Below, piece by piece: positions 52,449-60,904 of a stretch of DNA of 64,000 bases; within the stretch, counting starts at the first letter, position 1, and each line of letters opens with the position of its first letter. The notes below the pieces were generated by a model that saw only the letters and a list, made by a program, of their open reading frames with translations, was not told where the DNA came from and made no database searches. The stretch covers positions 1,116,001 to 1,180,000 of the forward strand of contig NZ_CP095491.1 in assembly GCF_023028105.1 (NCBI RefSeq), read 5' to 3'. The DNA comes from Halosolutus gelatinilyticus (GTDB taxonomy: Archaea > Halobacteriota > Halobacteria > Halobacteriales > Natrialbaceae). The translations under genes and the position numbers were made by a program.

Positions 52449-53843
52449 TTAGCGGGTCGACGGGTTTGCGTCTGTCGCTTCACCGTTCGACCGCCACGTC
52501 TCGAGTTCCCGCAACTCCTCGGCGACCGCCCCGATCTCCGCGGCGTCGAGCGCGCCGCGTTCGGTCGCGAACTCGGTCACGCAGTCCGCGGGCGTCACGT
52601 CGAACGTCGGGTTCAACACGTCGATCGACGCGTCGCCGTCGTAGACCGCCGATCGATCGCCCGATTCCAGGTTCACCTCCTCGCGGCTCGAGACCTTGTC
52701 CGCGGTGGCGACGATGGAGACCGGAATCCCCTCCCGATTGGCCGCGATCGCCAGCCCTCGGGTGCCCGTCTTGTTCACCACGGAGCCGTCCGGGAGGACG
52801 GTGTCGGCGCCGACGACGACCCGTTCGATCTCCTCGCGCGCGAGGACGTGCGCCGCGGCCGCGTCGGTGTGGAGCGTGACGGAACAGTCGCGCGAGAGTT
52901 CCTCGGCCACGTCGACCCCCTCGCCGGCGGGCCGGGATTCGGCGACGTACACCCGCGATGGCTCGCCCTCCCGGAGCGCGTCGAGGACCGTTCCCGATCG
53001 CGAGAGCGTCGCGACGCTCCCCTCGATCCGATCGGCCGCGGCGCTCGCCGCGTCCTTGTCGGCCGTGAGCGCGCGATCGATGCCCGCAAGCGCCGAGTCG
53101 AGGACGGCGGGCGCGCCGGCGGTATCGTCGCCGGCGCTTCGGTCCGCCTCCGACATCGCGCGGTTCATCCGGTTGCGGAGCACGGCCATAGACGGCCGGG
53201 CTTCGAGCAGCCGGCGGGCGAGTTCCGCGAGCTCGTCCCGTTCGCCCTGGGGATCGGTGCCGAACTCCGATCGCTCGTCGACCAGCAGACCGGCCCGATC
53301 GCGGAGGACTTCGAGCGCCCGGATCGAGAGGTAGGCGGCGCCGTGTTCGTCGTCGGCCGCGATCGACCGAACCGTCGGCGCCACCCGCTCGTAGGCCGTC
53401 CACAGTTCGGGGATCGCCTCCCGATCGTCGTCGGGGTCGAGCATCGCGCTCGGCGGGACCCACTCGAACGTATCGTGCTCGTCGCTGAGATCGACCTCCC
53501 GACGCTCGCAGTCGAACAGGTACGGGTGGACGGCCCACTCCCGATCGAGATCCGGGTCCGCGAACTCGACCGGCCGGCCCGATCGAACGAGCGAGACGTC
53601 GTCGGCCTCGAGGCCCGTCTCCTCTCGAATTTCGATCCAAACCTGTTCGTCGGGGGCGCCCTCCGCGAAGCCGGAGACGCCGCCCCACAGGCCCCGGTAG
53701 GTGCCGACGGCGTCGCTGCGGCGCAACAGGAGCACCTCGCCGCGGTTGCGGAGGAAGGCGGTGACGACGTGGGCCGCACCGCCCTCGTCGTGATCGCCGT
53801 CCGCGTCGTCTTCGTCCGCGTTCGGTCCCGGTTCGTCGCTCAT
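52449..53843 (-). CDS. NUDIX domain fused to an eIF2B alpha/beta/delta-like domain
   Basis: 464 residues. N-terminal NUDIX (about 25-150) with GLWGGVSGFAEGAPDEQVWI then EIREETGLEADDV; the first Arg of the REUxEE box is Ile here while the metal-binding Glu pair remains. The C-terminal half is an eIF2B-like/ribose-1,5-bisphosphate-isomerase fold: VVVGADTVLPDGSVVNKTGT, GLAIAANREGIPVSIVATAD, VLNPTFDVTPADCVTEFATE. A fusion of hydrolase and isomerase-like domains suggests nucleotide or sugar-phosphate metabolism. Start ATG 53843 (MSDEPGP). Confidence 0.88.
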   Translation of the reverse strand: MSDEPGPNADEDDADGDHDEGGAAHVVTAFLRNRGEVLLLRRSDAVGTYRGLWGGVSGFAEGAPDEQVWIEIREETGLEADDVSLVRSGRPVEFADPDLDREWAVHPYLFDCERREVDLSDEHDTFEWVPPSAMLDPDDDREAIPELWTAYERVAPTVRSIAADDEHGAAYLSIRALEVLRDRAGLLVDERSEFGTDPQGERDELAELARRLLEARPSMAVLRNRMNRAMSEADRSAGDDTAGAPAVLDSALAGIDRALTADKDAASAAADRIEGSVATLSRSGTVLDALREGEPSRVYVAESRPAGEGVDVAEELSRDCSVTLHTDAAAAHVLAREEIERVVVGADTVLPDGSVVNKTGTRGLAIAANREGIPVSIVATADKVSSREEVNLESGDRSAVYDGDASIDVLNPTFDVTPADCVTEFATERGALDAAEIGAVAEELRELETWRSNGEATDANPSTR

Positions 53844-53964
53844 ATCCGGAGCAACGAGCGCGGCGATGGAATGGCTTTCGGGACCGGCCGTTCGGGGATC
53901 GCGGCCGTCGACGGCGGCGACATCGTGCCGTGAACTATACCCGTCCCGCGTCCTACGTGGTAGC

Positions 53965-54510
53965 ATGACTCAACGCGTCACGGTTTCGCTCGACGGCGAT
54001 TCCACGGCTGCACTCGAACGGTTACTGGTCGAGACGGACAAGAGCCAAAGCGAGGTCGTTCGCCGTGCACTCACCTTCTACGCGGCGAACTTCGAGGCCG
54101 CGGACGGCCGGCCGAGCGACAACTTAGAACAGTACTACCAGATGCTCACCTCCGGCGAGCACGTCCTCCTCGACGTGGACTTCCTGCACGCCTTTTTGGA
54201 GCACGCCTACGAGGGCGGCGATCCCGATCCGGAATTCGTCGCGGCCGCCGATCGCGTCTCGGATTACCACGCCCGCGAGTACGCGACGCGGTTCGAGGAG
54301 GTGGGCGAACTGCTCGAGTGGCTCTCGTTCTGTGGCTTCCTCGAGGTCCGTTGCGAGGAAACTGACGTCCACCACATCGTCTTCCCCTCGGAGCCGATCC
54401 AGTGGTTCATGACGCGATTCATCGAGCGGAGCACCGTCGACATGCCCACCGACATCGAGATCGATCGGGGCGTCTCGAAGGTCATCGTCACCGAGCGACG
54501 AACCGACTGA
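53965..54510 (+). CDS. Ribbon-helix-helix (CopG-like) DNA-binding protein
   Basis: 181 residues. The N-terminal RHH is RVTVSLDGDSTAALERLLVE then SQSEVVRRALTFYAANFEA, with the beta-strand and two-helix pattern. The remaining 120 residues are helical with a C-terminal beta part (VHHIVFPSEPIQWFM). Probably a dimeric transcription regulator; target unknown. Located upstream of the NRAMP-like operon, which it might control (inference). Confidence 0.82.
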   Translation: MTQRVTVSLDGDSTAALERLLVETDKSQSEVVRRALTFYAANFEAADGRPSDNLEQYYQMLTSGEHVLLDVDFLHAFLEHAYEGGDPDPEFVAAADRVSDYHAREYATRFEEVGELLEWLSFCGFLEVRCEETDVHHIVFPSEPIQWFMTRFIERSTVDMPTDIEIDRGVSKVIVTERRTD

Positions 54511-54667
54511 CGAGCGTCCGCGATCGGCCCGATCGGACGGCCGTTCATACGACTTCACATTCGTTCACACGACGACCACGCCACGGGAGCCGTCGGAACC
54601 GATCGTATGTTCGACTCTCAACAACCTTTTTTACGTCTTCGACGGGCTCTGTGAGTGGATACCAATC

Positions 54668-55873
54668 ATGGGGTTTGCTGACCGACTGAAAGCGATCGGA
54701 CCGGGCGCGCTCGTCGCGGCGGCGTTCATCGGACCGGGAACCGTCACGACGGCGAGCGTCATCGGGGCGGAGTACGCGTACCTGCTCGTGTGGACGATCG
54801 CGTTCTCGATCCTGGCGACGATCGTGCTCCAGGAGATGAGCGCACGACTCGGCCTGATCACGAAGGAGGGACTGGGCGAAGCGTTTCGAAACGAATTCTC
54901 GAACCCGATCGCGAAGGGGGCGACGATCGCCCTCGTCGTGAGCGCGATCGGGATCGGGACGGCGGCGTTCCAGACCGGCAACATCGTCGGCGGCGCCGCC
55001 GGGCTGTCGACGATCACCGGCGTCAGCGAGAACGTGTGGGGGCCGATCATCGGCGTGGTCGCCGCCGGCCTGCTGTGGACTGGCAACTACAAACTGATCG
55101 AACGGGTCTTCATCGGCCTCGTAGTGGTCATGGGGTTGGCGTTCCTCGTCAACGCCGCCGTCGTCCGTCCGGATCTGGCTGCGATCGGCGGCGGTCTCGT
55201 GCCGACGGTTCCCGAGGGGTCGGCGTACCTGATCGCCGGCCTCGTCGGGACCACCGTCGTCGGTTACAACCTGTTCCTACACGCGAGCACCGTCCAGGAG
55301 CGCTGGGACGGGGCGAGCGACCTCGCGGAGTGTCGCACAGACACGATCGTCATGATCGTCGTCGGCGGGGTCATCACGACCTCGATCGTCGTCACCGCAG
55401 CGGCGGTGTTCCCCGAGGGAACCCGGATCGCAAACGTCGGCGAGATGGCCGACCAGTTAGAGCCCGTTTTCGGCGGCTACGCGCTCACATTCTTCGGGAT
55501 CGGCCTCTTTGCGGCCGGCTTCACGAGCGCGATGAGCGCGCCGCTCGCCGGCGCCTACGCGACCGCCGGCGCGCTCGGCTGGGAACGCGACCTGACCTCG
55601 ACGCGCTTTCGGGCGATCTGGGGATCGATCCTCGGCGTCGGTATCGTCTTCTCCGCGCTCGACTACAACCCCGTCGAGGTGATCGTCTTCGCGCAGGTGG
55701 CCAACGGTCTCCTGTTGCCGATCCTCGCCGTCTTCCTCATCTACGCGATGAACAACGACGAGCTGCTGGGTGAATACACCAACACCGCCCTGCAGAACGT
55801 CCTCGGCGGCGCCGTCACGCTCGTCGTGATCGGTATCGGCCTCCGAACGCTCTACGACGTCTTGCTCCTCTGA
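54668..55873 (+). CDS. NRAMP-related transporter with altered metal-site motifs
   Basis: 401 residues, ten or eleven helices of the NRAMP/LeuT fold. In helix 1 the canonical DPGN reads GPGT (AAFIGPGTVTTASVIGAE). In helix 6 the canonical MPH reads VGY (GTTVVGYNLFLHASTVQERW). Loss of both ligand sets argues against ordinary Mn2+/Fe2+ transport. The gene sits 4 bases upstream of hyuA, and B. subtilis ycsG, another NRAMP-related gene, lies in an oxoprolinase operon. A cargo related to hydantoin or 5-oxoproline is therefore plausible but unproven. Confidence 0.82.
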   Translation: MGFADRLKAIGPGALVAAAFIGPGTVTTASVIGAEYAYLLVWTIAFSILATIVLQEMSARLGLITKEGLGEAFRNEFSNPIAKGATIALVVSAIGIGTAAFQTGNIVGGAAGLSTITGVSENVWGPIIGVVAAGLLWTGNYKLIERVFIGLVVVMGLAFLVNAAVVRPDLAAIGGGLVPTVPEGSAYLIAGLVGTTVVGYNLFLHASTVQERWDGASDLAECRTDTIVMIVVGGVITTSIVVTAAAVFPEGTRIANVGEMADQLEPVFGGYALTFFGIGLFAAGFTSAMSAPLAGAYATAGALGWERDLTSTRFRAIWGSILGVGIVFSALDYNPVEVIVFAQVANGLLLPILAVFLIYAMNNDELLGEYTNTALQNVLGGAVTLVVIGIGLRTLYDVLLL

Positions 55874-55877
55874 TCGA

Positions 55878-57944
55878 ATGGACGACACGAACCCAACCGA
55901 CACGACCTCGAACGCATCGACGCACGACGACTCGGCCGACGGCAGCACCCGAATCGGCGTCGACGTCGGCGGCACGTTCACCGACGTCGCCCTCTCGGTC
56001 GACGATCGGCTCGTCACCGCGAAGGTGCCGACCACCGATCCCCAGCACGTCGGCGTCCTCGAAGGCATCCGCAAGGCCTGCGAGACGGCCGACGTCGACC
56101 CGGGCGAGATCGACGACTTCGCCCACGCGATGACCGTCTCGGTCAACGCCCTGCTCGAGCGAAACGGCGCGCGGACGGCGCTCGTCACCACCGAGGGGTT
56201 CCGGGACGTCCTCGAAATCGGTCGCCAGAACCGGCCGGCGCTCTACGACCTCGACGCCGAAAAACCCGATCCGCTGGTCCCCCGCGATCGACGGTTCGAA
56301 GTGGACGAGCGGACGACGACCGACGGCGTCGAACGCCCGGTCGACCGCGACGAGGTCCGCGATCTCGCGGCGACCCTGCGCGATCGGGACGTCGAAGCCG
56401 TCGCGGTCTGCCTGCTCCACGCCTACGCCGACCCCGAAAACGAGCGCGCGGTCGCCGCCGTTCTGCGCGAGGAACTCGACGTCCCCGTCTCGGCCTCCCA
56501 CGAGGTGCTCGCCGAGTTCCGGGAGTTCGAGCGCACCTCGACGACGACCGTCGACGCCTACGTTCGGCCGGCGATCGATCGCTACGTCGGGCGGCTCGTC
56601 GACGAGGCGGCGGACGCGGAGATCCCGGCACCGCGGATCATGCGGGCCAACGGCGGCATCGCCGATCCGGAGACGGTTCGCGAGCGAGCCGTCACGACGA
56701 CGCTGTCCGGCCCCGCCGCGGGAGTCGTCGGCGCCGCGGCGACCGTCGCCGACGACGACGTCGAGGGGCTCGTCACGTTCGACATGGGCGGCACCTCGAG
56801 CGACGTGAGCCTCGTCCGGGACGGTCGGGCCGAGCGGACGACGGACGCGGAGATCGACGGCCTGCCGATCCGAACGCCGATGGTCGACGTGAACACCGTC
56901 GGCGCGGGCGGCGGCTCGGTCGCCTGGGTCGACGCTGGCGGCGCGCTCCGGGTCGGTCCGCGATCGTCGGGCGCCGACCCCGGCCCGGTCTGCTACGGTC
57001 GCGGCGGGACCGAACCCACCGTCACCGACGCGAACGTCGTACTCGGGTACATCGGTCCCGAGACCGCGCTGGGCGGCGAGATGACGCTCGACGTCGAGGC
57101 GGCCCGCGAGGCGCTCGATCGGCTGGCCGCCGAGGCCGACCTCGGCGGCGCGCTCGAAGCGGCCCGAGGAATCTACCGCGTCGCGAACGCGACGATGACG
57201 CGAACGATCCGATCGGTGACGGTCGAACGCGGCCACGACCCGCGGGAGTTCGCGCTCGTCGCGTTCGGCGGCGCGGGCCCGATGCACGCCGCCGCGCTCG
57301 CCGAGGCGCTCGAGGTCGATCGCGTCGTCGTCCCGCGGCCGAGCGGGGTCCTTTCCGCGTACGGGCTGCTCGCGGCCGACGAGAGCTACGACGCGGTCCG
57401 GACCGTCGGAGTCGACCTGGACGCAGCGGATCCGGCCGATCTCGAAGTCGTCTACGACGACCTCGTCGCTGACGTGCTCGCCGACGCCTCCGATCCCGAT
57501 CGAGCGCGGGTCGAGCGCGCGGCCGACTGTCGGTACGCCGGCCAGAGCTTCGAACTCACAGTCCCCGCGGACGAAGCGATCGACGCCGCGGCGATCGCGG
57601 AGCGGTTCCACGCCGCCCACGAGCGGGCCTACGGCTACAAGATGGACGAATCGATCGAGGTCGTCAACCTGCGCGCGACGGCGACCGTCCCCGGAACCGA
57701 ACCGATCGTCCGCCACGACGGCGGAGGCGACGCGCTCGTCGACACCCGAGAGGCGCACTTCCCCGGCGCCGGGCCGCGGGAGGCGACCGTCTACGAGCGC
57801 GATCGGCTCGAATCCGGCGCGACGATCGACGGGCCGGCGATCCTCGAACAGGCGGAGAGCACGACCGTCGTGCCGCCGACCTGGACGGGCGAGGTTCTCG
57901 CGGACGGCACGCTCGCGATGACGCGAGGGGGTGACCAGCGATGA
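55878..57944 (+). CDS. hyuA: Hydantoinase/oxoprolinase subunit A
   Basis: 688 residues, ASKHA fold ATPase subunit. IGVDVGGTFTDVALSVDDR near 31 is the phosphate-1 motif, VTFDMGGTSSDVSLVRDG the phosphate-2 motif, and the conserved VNTVGAGGGSVAWVDAGGAL follows. It pairs with HyuB to hydrolyse hydantoins or 5-oxoproline with ATP. Starts 4 bases after the NRAMP-like stop and overlaps hyuB by 4 bases (ATGA). Confidence 0.95.
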   Translation: MDDTNPTDTTSNASTHDDSADGSTRIGVDVGGTFTDVALSVDDRLVTAKVPTTDPQHVGVLEGIRKACETADVDPGEIDDFAHAMTVSVNALLERNGARTALVTTEGFRDVLEIGRQNRPALYDLDAEKPDPLVPRDRRFEVDERTTTDGVERPVDRDEVRDLAATLRDRDVEAVAVCLLHAYADPENERAVAAVLREELDVPVSASHEVLAEFREFERTSTTTVDAYVRPAIDRYVGRLVDEAADAEIPAPRIMRANGGIADPETVRERAVTTTLSGPAAGVVGAAATVADDDVEGLVTFDMGGTSSDVSLVRDGRAERTTDAEIDGLPIRTPMVDVNTVGAGGGSVAWVDAGGALRVGPRSSGADPGPVCYGRGGTEPTVTDANVVLGYIGPETALGGEMTLDVEAAREALDRLAAEADLGGALEAARGIYRVANATMTRTIRSVTVERGHDPREFALVAFGGAGPMHAAALAEALEVDRVVVPRPSGVLSAYGLLAADESYDAVRTVGVDLDAADPADLEVVYDDLVADVLADASDPDRARVERAADCRYAGQSFELTVPADEAIDAAAIAERFHAAHERAYGYKMDESIEVVNLRATATVPGTEPIVRHDGGGDALVDTREAHFPGAGPREATVYERDRLESGATIDGPAILEQAESTTVVPPTWTGEVLADGTLAMTRGGDQR

Positions 57945-59653
57945 CCGACGAGACTACCGACGGGACGGAACCGGATACCGAGAATCGGGCGGGCGACTCG
58001 GGCATCGACCCGGTGACGCTCGAAGTGCTGCGCAACCAGTTGGAGAGCGTCGCCGAGGAGATGGGCCAGACCCTGATCCGCGGCGCGTACTCGCCGAACA
58101 TCAAGGAGCGACGCGACTGCTCGACGGCGCTGTTCGACGCCGACGGGCGAATGATCGCCCAGGCCGAGCACATCCCGGTCCACCTCGGCGCGATGCCCGC
58201 AGCCGTCGACGCCGTGCGCGAGCGCGATCCGAAACCCGGCGACGTGTTCGTGCTCAACGACCCGTTCACGGGCGGGACGCATCTCCCGGACGTGACGATG
58301 GTCTCGCCGATCGCGCCCGCAGCCGTCGAAAGCGACGGCGACGGACCCGGCGCCGACCCGGACGCGAGAGAGATCGTCGGCTACGCCGTCTCCCGCGCCC
58401 ACCACGCCGACGTCGGGGGGATGACTCCCGGGAGCATGCCGGCCGGGGCGCAGGAGATCTACCAGGAAGGGCTGCGGCTGCCGCCGATCCGACTCGTCGA
58501 GGGCGGCGACGACCGCGAGGACGTCCGATCGCTGCTGCTCGCGAACGTCCGCAACCCGCGAGAGCGTCGGGCCGATCTGCGGGCACAGCAGGCGGCGAAC
58601 GAGCGTGCCGAGTCGCGACTCGCGGCGCTGTTCGACGAGCACGGCCGCGAGACGGTCCGCCGAGGATTCGACGCCGTCATCGACTACTCGCGCGATCGGA
58701 TCGAGAGCGAGATCGAGGAACTGCCCGACGGCACCTACGAGGCGACCGACGTCCTCGAAGGCGACGGCGTCACCGACGAAGACGTCGAGATCACCGCGGC
58801 GGTGACGATCGACGGCGGGGGGATCGAGGTCGACTTCGACGGGACCGCCAGTCAGGTCGCGGGCAACCTCAACGCGCCGCTCGCGGTCGCCGAGAGCGCC
58901 GTCTACTTCGTCGTGCGCTGTATCACGGATCCGGAGATCCCGCCGAACCAGGGCTGCTACGACCCGGTTACCGTCCGCGCTCCCGAGAGAACGCTGCTGA
59001 ACCCGGAGCCCCCCGCGGCGGTCGTCGGCGGCAACGTCGAGACCAGCCAGCGCGTCACGGACGTCGTCTTCGCGGCCCTCGCCGCGGCGGCGCCCGATCG
59101 CGTCCCGGCACAGGGTCAGGGGACGATGAACAACCTGACGATCGGCGCGCGGGACGGCTCGTTCACCTACTACGAGACGATCGGCGGCGGCTTCGGCGCC
59201 CGGCCCGATCGCGACGGGATGGACGGCGTCCAGGTCGGCATGACGAACACGCTCAACACGCCCGTCGAGTCGATCGAATCCGAGTATCCGCTACGCGTCG
59301 AAGGCTACGCCCTGCGGCCCGATAGCGGCGGTCGCGGGGAGTACCGCGGGGGTCTGGGACTGGAGCGATCGGTCACCGTCGAGACCGACGCGACCGTGTC
59401 GCTGCTCACGGAGCGCCGACGGCACGCCCCGAAGGGCGTCGCGGGCGGCGAGGACGGCGCGACCGGCGAAAATCTGATCGACGGCGCCCCGGTTCCGGCG
59501 AAGACGACCGTCGACGTCGAGGCCGGGACGACGGTGACGGTTCGGACGCCCGGCGGGGGCGGGCACGGTGATCCGGCCGATCGGGACGAGGCGGCGATCG
59601 AGGCCGATCGGAATGCCGACAAGGCGCACGACGGCACCAACGGAGCGCGATAA
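57941..59653 (+). CDS. hyuB: Hydantoinase/oxoprolinase subunit B
   Basis: 570 residues. VTLEVLRNQLESVAEEMGQT, LIRGAYSPNIKERRDCSTAL, then GDVFVLNDPFTGGTHLPDVT and HHADVGGMTPGSMP are signatures of HyuB. GQGTMNNLTIGARDGSF and PGGGGHGDPADRDEAA are also typical. Completes the ATP-dependent amidohydrolase with HyuA. Slightly longer than average by an acidic tail. Confidence 0.95.
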   Translation: MTDETTDGTEPDTENRAGDSGIDPVTLEVLRNQLESVAEEMGQTLIRGAYSPNIKERRDCSTALFDADGRMIAQAEHIPVHLGAMPAAVDAVRERDPKPGDVFVLNDPFTGGTHLPDVTMVSPIAPAAVESDGDGPGADPDAREIVGYAVSRAHHADVGGMTPGSMPAGAQEIYQEGLRLPPIRLVEGGDDREDVRSLLLANVRNPRERRADLRAQQAANERAESRLAALFDEHGRETVRRGFDAVIDYSRDRIESEIEELPDGTYEATDVLEGDGVTDEDVEITAAVTIDGGGIEVDFDGTASQVAGNLNAPLAVAESAVYFVVRCITDPEIPPNQGCYDPVTVRAPERTLLNPEPPAAVVGGNVETSQRVTDVVFAALAAAAPDRVPAQGQGTMNNLTIGARDGSFTYYETIGGGFGARPDRDGMDGVQVGMTNTLNTPVESIESEYPLRVEGYALRPDSGGRGEYRGGLGLERSVTVETDATVSLLTERRRHAPKGVAGGEDGATGENLIDGAPVPAKTTVDVEAGTTVTVRTPGGGGHGDPADRDEAAIEADRNADKAHDGTNGAR

Positions 59654-60127: not shown

Positions 60128-60904
60128 ATGGAACTGGAGCCAGTGACGGACCTGCCCGAGATCCGTCCGGGCGACGACCTCGCCGCGCTCATCGCCGATC
60201 GGGCCGCCCTCGAACCAGGCGACGTGTGCACCGTCGCGAGCACGATCGTCTCGAAGGCCGAAGGGCGGACGACGGATCTCGAGGACTATCCCGTCAGCGG
60301 CCGCGCGAAGGAGATAGCCGACCGGATCGGCGACGTCGCGGGCGAGGAGAAGGACCCGCGGTTCGCCCAGGCGGTCCTGGACGAGAGCACGGAGCTGCTG
60401 ATCGACTGCCCGTTCATGCTCACCGAGACGCGGTTCGGCCACATCTGCGTCAACGCGGGGATCGATCGCTCGAACGTGCCGGACCACGACATCCTCCTGC
60501 TGCCGAAGAACCCCGCGGCGAGCGCCGAGCGGATCCGATCGGGCCTGGCAGAGCGCGGTCACGAAGACGTCGCGGTGATCGTGACGGACACCTGCGGGCG
60601 GCCGTTCCGCCACGGTCAGCGCGGGGTCGCACTCGGCTGGGCGGGGATGCCCGCCAGCCGCGACTGGCGGGGCGAACTCGATCGGGACGGACGCGAACTC
60701 GGGGTCACCGTCCAGTCGGTCGTCGACGAACTCGCCGCGGCGGCGAACCTCGTTACGGGAGAGGGCGACGGCGGGACGCCCGCAGTCGCCGTCCGCGAGT
60801 GGGACTTCGGCGATCACGAGGGGAGCGACGAACTCTTCCGCGACGTCGAGGACGACCTCGTCCGACAGGCGCTTCGCGGGTGGGAATGGAGGGGCGACGA
60901 ATGA
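60128..60904 (+). CDS. cofE: Coenzyme F420-0:L-glutamate ligase
   Basis: 258 residues. The start ELEPVTDLPEIRPGDDLAAL, then VCTVASTIVSKAEGRTTDLE and CPFMLTETRFGHICVNAGID, ILLLPKNPAASAERIRSGL, and VAVIVTDTCGRPFRHGQRGV match the CofE/FbiB ligase. It adds glutamates to F420-0 with GTP. Overlaps mer by 4 bases (ATGA), so the two are cotranslated. Preceded by the hairpin array. Confidence 0.96.
   Translation: MELEPVTDLPEIRPGDDLAALIADRAALEPGDVCTVASTIVSKAEGRTTDLEDYPVSGRAKEIADRIGDVAGEEKDPRFAQAVLDESTELLIDCPFMLTETRFGHICVNAGIDRSNVPDHDILLLPKNPAASAERIRSGLAERGHEDVAVIVTDTCGRPFRHGQRGVALGWAGMPASRDWRGELDRDGRELGVTVQSVVDELAAAANLVTGEGDGGTPAVAVREWDFGDHEGSDELFRDVEDDLVRQALRGWEWRGDE

Follow-up and report, generated by a model that had tools for sequence, protein, structure and literature searches.

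Gene organization of the NRAMP-hyuAB operon

Our analysis concerns an apparent operon in a 64,000-nt stretch of the Halosolutus gelatinilyticus contig NZ_CP095491.1 (positions 1,116,001-1,180,000; assembly GCF_023028105.1), hereafter referred to as the window, in which a gene encoding an NRAMP-related transporter is directly followed by the two genes of a HyuAB-type enzyme. The transporter gene (54668-55873, + strand) encodes 401 aa and matches the PF01566 profile at 324 bits, with GPGT in its first transmembrane segment (TM1), N for E134 in TM3, and VGYN in TM6. Only 4 bases (55874-55877) separate it from hyuA (55878-57944, +), whose 688-aa product (PF01968, 326 bits; PF05378, 175 bits) is the predicted ATP-binding subunit of an ATP-dependent lactamase/hydantoinase/5-oxoprolinase. 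The hyuB gene (57941-59653, +; 570 aa; full-length match to PF02538, 689 bits) encodes the predicted metal-binding hydrolytic subunit and starts inside the end of hyuA, the two ORFs (open reading frames) overlapping by ATGA. The coordinates, spacing, and overlap are exactly as an earlier sequence-based description of this locus (the original prediction) had given them.

Upstream of the transporter gene is an ORF encoding a 180-aa ribbon-helix-helix (CopG-type) regulator (53968-54510, +; PF01402, 28.9 bits), for which an alternative in-frame start is possible at 53866. It is followed by a putative operator consisting of three TTCAyAc.. repeats at 10-bp spacing (TTCATACGAC TTCACATTCG TTCACACG; 54544-54571, +); TTCATAC repeats at the same spacing precede the NRAMP start in most of 27 aligned orthologous upstream regions. 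The triple-repeat pattern has a single match in the 4.76 Mb genome, namely the site at 54544-54571, compared with 0 matches for a reversed control and 0 expected in the window. Judging from this pattern, the repeats are probably the operator of the local ribbon-helix-helix regulator; being the sole genomic site, the operator yielded no further targets and was set aside as a regulon marker. A promoter-like box (CTCAACAACCTTTTTTA; 54617-54633, +) lies ~35 bp before the NRAMP start, and its putative function is suggested by a CT.AACAA...TT.T motif that is kept in at least 80% of the aligned upstream regions.

The operon is conserved among Halobacteria

Orthologues of the window transporter (56-92% identity) were found in 112 of 391 Halobacteria genomes, with all next matches at ≤35%. 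We sampled 60 orthologous haloarchaeal loci, the genomes of which are not independent of one another, and counted neighbors within 4-8 kb flanks. In 57/60 loci, hyuA and then hyuB are located downstream on the same strand, and the hyuA match begins 8-208 bp past the NRAMP match in these 57. Because the same-strand arrangement recurs in so many orthologous loci, the NRAMP-hyuA-hyuB order is not due to chance. At one further locus (L069), hyuAB is nearby but on the opposite strand. The NRAMP gene and hyuAB are also carried by Haloferax mediterranei (pHME505; E6P09_RS16855, RS16860, and RS16865) and Haloarcula hispanica. A homologue of the ribbon-helix-helix gene precedes the NRAMP gene by <700 bp in 52/60 loci, while a gene of the arylmalonate-decarboxylase/racemase family follows hyuB in 43/60; the window has none. 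The racemase-family neighbor matches PF17645 at 131 bits and PF01177 at 36 bits, and these proteins score best against the arylmalonate decarboxylase profile (129-134 bits; cut-off 225) and that of EutA, reaching neither cut-off. Hydantoin racemase was considered as an identity for them and rejected, as it is not the best profile match. One example tied to NRAMP-hyuAB, at L036:12892-13626, is related to EutA and maleate isomerase.

The linkage is not a trait of any NRAMP-like gene, since neither hyuAB nor pxpA occurs near the other haloarchaeal NRAMP-like genes (0/20 loci). Conversely, there was no NRAMP gene near haloarchaeal PxpA genes (0/20 PxpA loci) and there is no PxpA in the H. gelatinilyticus genome, which argues against a PxpABC operon with this transporter in Halobacteria. 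Among the other NRAMP-like genes, we also noted an adjacent pair of divergent members (L003/L004; G000 contig 1, 45423-47967) having GAGS in TM1 and VYWPN/VYYPN in TM6; none of the five PF01566 proteins of the genome carrying them has the DPGN motif.

The transporter clade has lost the metal ligands of Nramp proteins

To describe the transporter, we aligned it with DraNramp, BfraNramp, and EleNRMT, using DraNramp residue numbering throughout. In TM1 (AAFIGPGTVTTAS) D56 is replaced by G and N59 by T, which converts DPGN to GPGT, and in TM6 (GTTVVGYNLFLH) A227, M230, P231, and H232 are replaced by T, V, G, and Y, respectively, which converts A..MPH to T..VGY. The original prediction had read the same changes in helices 1 and 6 as a loss of the ligands used for Mn/Fe, which the alignment bears out and extends to TM3, where E134 is replaced by N and D131 by Q. 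Over 101 members of the clade to which the window protein belongs, G is invariant at position 56, T or S occupies 59, and N (D in one protein), V, and Y stand at 134, 230, and 232, respectively. The canonical metal ligands D56, N59, M230, H232, and E134 are lost throughout these 101 proteins, and in no case do the residues make up the ligands of a carrier for transition metals or Mg2+.

The clade shares fold and family with the canonical Nramp/MntH/SLC11 proteins (DraNramp, BfraNramp, and the E. coleocola DMT), but lacks both their metal ligands and their TM3/TM9 proton-path residues. A canonical Nramp/SLC11 identity was rejected, as DPGN, A..MPH, and the TM3 glutamate are replaced by G/T(S), T..V(P/G)Y, and N(D) in the 101 members. 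With the Mg2+ transporter EleNRMT the clade has in common the fold, the T at A227, and the loss of the canonical methionine; however, NRMT keeps D56 and E134, whereas the clade has G and N. The signature of NRMT is DxxG in TM1 and TxxA/T in TM6 (PMC8806188), while TM1 of the window protein reads GxxT, and NRMT identity is ruled out as well.

The automated names do not reflect these changes. The window protein exceeds the PF01566 cut-off of 29.8 bits by far (residues 26-373) and scores 97.5 bits against NCBIfam NF037982 (Nramp family divalent metal transporter; cut-off 50), but falls far below the cut-offs of the MntH/Nramp metal models TIGR01197 and NF001923. The tested bacterial clade members are likewise named "Nramp family divalent metal transporter" by the NCBI equivalog model, an annotation that is probably wrong for the whole clade. 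One could nonetheless take the name at face value, in which case the protein would import divalent metal (Mn2+) and its co-expression would provide a metal-dependent lactamase with the cofactor, in agreement with the metal site retained in HyuB (see below). We regard this as improbable, since the Mn/Fe ligands are replaced in 101/101 members and even EleNRMT retains the D56 and E134 that the clade does not (PMC8806188).

An AlphaFold2 model of the window protein (pLDDT 91.6, pTM 0.90) was used for a Foldseek search. The best matches were DraNramp, EleNRMT, and BfraNramp, with TM-scores of ~0.8-0.9 to DraNramp and BfraNramp and 0.88 to EleNRMT. Next came further carriers of the LeuT fold, among them several for amino acids and the hydantoin carrier Mhp1, and the B. 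subtilis YcsG chain (9a52) was also among the matches. Several amino-acid carriers with the LeuT fold use a break in TM1 that is rich in glycine and lacks acidic residues to hold the carboxylate of the substrate.

Bacterial members are linked to a second, unrelated oxoprolinase

Genome contigs were scanned with the group alignment, and of the 589 loci obtained we inspected the best 80 by score, which are neither a random sample nor from independent genomes; 78 of the 80 are bacterial. Clade members have GPG[TS] in TM1, and nearly all of the bacterial ones have GTT[VI]VPYN in TM6. A pxpA gene is present in the flank of 33/78 bacterial loci, in 28/33 cases ≤100 bp from the NRAMP gene, and pxpB and pxpC are also present in 32 of the 33. 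The pxp-linked loci come from Bacteroidota, Bacillota, Actinomycetota, and Pseudomonadota. In a further two loci of Bacteroidota (L178 and L180; 2/78), hyuA-hyuB is present instead of pxpABC. Thus, the enrichment beside hyuAB or pxp genes that the original prediction had named as its test proved very strong across the archaeal and bacterial loci, against none of the 20 other haloarchaeal NRAMP-like loci. Two plasmid loci with pxpA are also worth recording. On a Tsukamurella plasmid (L154:3448-6753), the PxpA gene immediately follows an operon for a zinc/metal ABC transporter, which one would not expect next to an oxoprolinase subunit, while L153 (Lactiplantibacillus plantarum pEM2), one of the small plasmids common to several lactobacilli, combines pxpA with a YcsG-type NRAMP gene and a "putative hydro-lyase" gene.

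We inferred a careful maximum-likelihood tree from 44 sequences (27 rows for the window's clade and 5 for the YcsG clade), in which the former had 100/98 support and both the YcsG clade and the canonical Nramps had 100/100. Rows from archaea cluster with pxp-linked Bacillota at moderate support (86/73), and L178/L180 are placed among pxp-linked Bacteroidales. When pxp/hyu linkage was mapped on a 124-row tree, it required two changes only, as for two separate replacements. L178/L180 encode a HyuA with 34% identity to that of the window, less than the 46% of a Thermomicrobium HyuA, such that a transfer of HyuAB from haloarchaea to these loci is unlikely and the identities would fit a separate recruitment. 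The clade is placed next to the canonical Nramps with a non-conclusive support of 91/92. A sister relationship to YcsG was neither rejected (approximately unbiased test, p = 0.30) nor demonstrated.

The original prediction had drawn its analogy from B. subtilis ycsG, which does sit in an oxoprolinase (kip/pxp) operon (PMC13274462, PMC10448178). YcsG and its C. glutamicum homologue PxpT resemble the window protein in being PF01566 proteins encoded beside 5-oxoprolinase genes, and all five YcsG-clade rows of the tree adjoin pxp genes. The YcsG family also has GPG for DPGN in TM1, N for E134 in TM3, and Y for H232 in TM6. It differs in having F rather than T at N59 and G rather than V at M230, and H237 and Q378 are lost in YcsG. 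Identity to the window protein is ~27% (L. plantarum homologue), and the separately supported clades rule out YcsG/PxpT membership at the clade level. The pxpABC linkage of YcsG/PxpT recurs among the bacterial members of the window's clade, while the archaeal branch has hyuAB instead. The analogy therefore holds in that the window's own clade is oxoprolinase-linked, but the protein lies outside of the YcsG/PxpT branch, with which a shared ancestry is not rejected. Nramp-related outgroups have been described by Cellier (PMC9606685) and by Ray, Berry and Gaudet, whose "G-motif" groups are uncharacterized except for YcsG/MntG (PMC12873925). Given its GPG in TM1 and lack of a metal motif, the window's clade is probably included in these outgroups, for which we found no substrate proposal in the two papers beyond NRMT and G-motif 3.

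HyuA and HyuB retain intact ATP motifs and putative metal ligands

The phosphate and adenosine motifs of HyuA are intact (DVGGTFTD at residue 29, DMGGTSSD at 302, and GADPGP at 365), as are the putative metal ligands D59, H114, D117, and H154 of HyuB, which align to D41/H99/D102/H124 of CapB, the metal ligands named in PMC8453981. In possessing both subunits, the ATP motifs, and the metal ligands, the pair resembles the known HyuAB family (caprolactamase CapAB, N-methylhydantoinase, 5-oxoprolinase OPLAH, and the acetone/acetophenone carboxylases). The pair reached none of the named NCBIfam equivalogs (e.g. CapA, 501 bits against a cut-off of 1000) and is assigned no named substrate. The closest solved homologue of HyuA carries the name N-methylhydantoinase. 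We dropped a functional assignment based on a CapA lysine (PMC8453981), the residue number of which does not fit the chain as printed. On sequence grounds, 5-oxoproline, hydantoin, and other lactams are not separable as the ring substrate of HyuAB. Two-subunit proteins of the HyuAB type have been proposed as the 5-oxoprolinases of Sulfolobaceae, where extracts exhibited ATP-stimulated activity (PMC6507225). As the H. gelatinilyticus genome contains no PxpA and only one other HyuA, which is distant (27% identity), the window HyuAB is its main candidate lactamase. Relatives of the window hyuAB are also found on haloarchaeal plasmids with no adjoining NRAMP gene (L159, L160, and L161), and the enzyme pair can therefore stand alone.

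5-oxoproline as the probable substrate

PxpABC and HyuAB are unrelated proteins (PMC8453981), and the trait they have in common is consequently the ATP-dependent opening of a lactam. Because one transporter clade pairs with both of them, its substrate is likely to be a lactam, and the 5-oxoprolinase function of PxpABC makes 5-oxoproline the first candidate. The exchange of pxpABC for hyuAB beside the same transporter is our strongest argument, as it is predicted by transport of a common substrate and not by metal supply. Thus, the operon probably scavenges a cyclic amide, with 5-oxo-L-proline (pyroglutamate, a cyclized glutamate) the leading candidate, as a carbon or nitrogen source, and the window protein and its bacterial relatives would most likely import 5-oxoproline rather than metals. 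Which way the transporter works, what it carries, and what the regulator and racemase do are inferred, as follows. The NRAMP-related LeuT-fold importer, with D, N, M, H, and E of the metal site changed to G, T, V, Y, and N, would bring in the lactam, HyuA would phosphorylate it at the expense of ATP, and HyuB would open the ring, yielding glutamate if the substrate is 5-oxoproline. The ribbon-helix-helix protein probably represses the operon via the TTCATAC repeats at their 10-bp spacing, with the substrate as a possible signal, while the racemase-like enzyme of many relatives perhaps permits use of the other enantiomer.

Some observations run counter to this proposal. Neither pxp nor hyu genes occur in the flank of 43/78 bacterial loci, mostly from one gammaproteobacterial clade, and the conserved neighbors of the gammaproteobacterial members without pxp are ordinary local synteny that gives no hint of a substrate. 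Two diverged archaeal orthologues, L095 (62% identity) and L100 (55-56% identity), are without hyuAB. Halobacteria having the orthologue also possess PxpA more often than those lacking it (27/112 vs 24/279, p = 1e-4), and HyuAB may thus not simply be replacing PxpABC in Halobacteria; this co-occurrence may also reflect genome size or lineage. No transport, growth, binding, or mutant data were found for any clade member in open-licence papers. Finally, Mn-import phenotypes are published for two NRAMP-related proteins outside of the window's clade: YcsG (MntG), whose overexpression raised cellular Mn in B. subtilis (PMC10448178), and MumT, as mumT deletion lowered Mn in A. baumannii and was complemented (PMC5050338). 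Both are encoded in operons with carboxylase/oxoprolinase-type genes and speak for the cofactor-supply explanation. Still, a generic supply of metal would leave the replacement of pxpABC by hyuAB unexplained, and C. glutamicum PxpT, a YcsG homologue, is needed for growth on 5-oxoproline, again with complementation (PMC13274462). The idea that this branch carries hydantoin or 5-oxoproline rather than metals has accordingly gained support from the enrichment, while the choice among 5-oxoproline, hydantoin, and other lactams is not fixed by the sequences and the YcsG/MumT phenotypes keep a metal role alive.

The racemase-like gene and L100 make hydantoin the principal alternative for the archaeal branch. 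Hydantoins such as hydantoin-5-propionate or other 5-substituted forms would be imported and converted by HyuAB to the N-carbamoyl amino acid, with the racemase-family protein supplying the right enantiomer. In favor of this are the Asp/Glu/hydantoin-racemase superfamily gene following hyuB in 43/60 loci, the name of the nearest solved HyuA homologue, and L100 (5034-9194), in which the NRAMP gene and a racemase-like gene are near genes of the creatininase and N-carbamoyl-amidase families. The L100 amidase belongs to the M20 hydantoinase/carbamoylase (allantoate-amidohydrolase) family (TIGR01879, 421 bits), and these neighbors suggest a hydantoin-like substrate and possibly a hydantoin or creatinine-type pathway in that haloarchaeon. 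For the archaeal branch as a whole we consider hydantoins unlikely, given that the transporter's bacterial relatives co-localize with genes for a 5-oxoprolinase, the conserved archaeal block has no carbamoylase gene, and the racemase-like protein is nearest to arylmalonate decarboxylase/EutA, albeit below their cut-offs, rather than to hydantoin racemase. The transporter might also act as a lactam exporter or overflow valve, or carry a product such as glutamate, as genomic linkage gives no direction and the LeuT/APC fold of the clade includes exchangers. This seems very improbable to us, because growth on external 5-oxoproline depends on the 5-oxoprolinase-linked PxpT (PMC13274462) and an exporter beside a catabolic enzyme makes little sense.

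Two neighbors of the operon complete the description of the locus. Just upstream of the regulator, on the opposite strand, a 505-aa protein (52449-53966, -) fuses NUDIX and IF-2B-type (eIF2B-like) domains. Downstream, on the same strand as the operon, is a gene for F420-0:gamma-glutamyl ligase (60128-60904, +), a glutamate-using enzyme; several of the closest relatives, but not more distant ones, have it in this downstream position as well.

Implications for the Nramp family

Our favored interpretation, 5-oxoproline import, adds weight to the 5-oxoproline side of a conflict over YcsG, described by one study as transporting oxoproline and by another as importing Mn (under the name MntG), and our survey names organisms in which this conflict could be settled. 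In a broader sense, and with somewhat less than even confidence, we propose that a widespread Nramp-related clade, possibly the nearest kin of the true metal transporters, consists of importers of 5-oxoproline or similar lactams paired with two unrelated oxoprolinases, that Nramp metal transport evolved from organic-solute carriers, and that the Mn phenotypes of YcsG and MumT are indirect. If organic-solute carriers are indeed the nearest relatives of the Nramp metal transporters, this would suggest that the family switched from an organic substrate to a metal ion.

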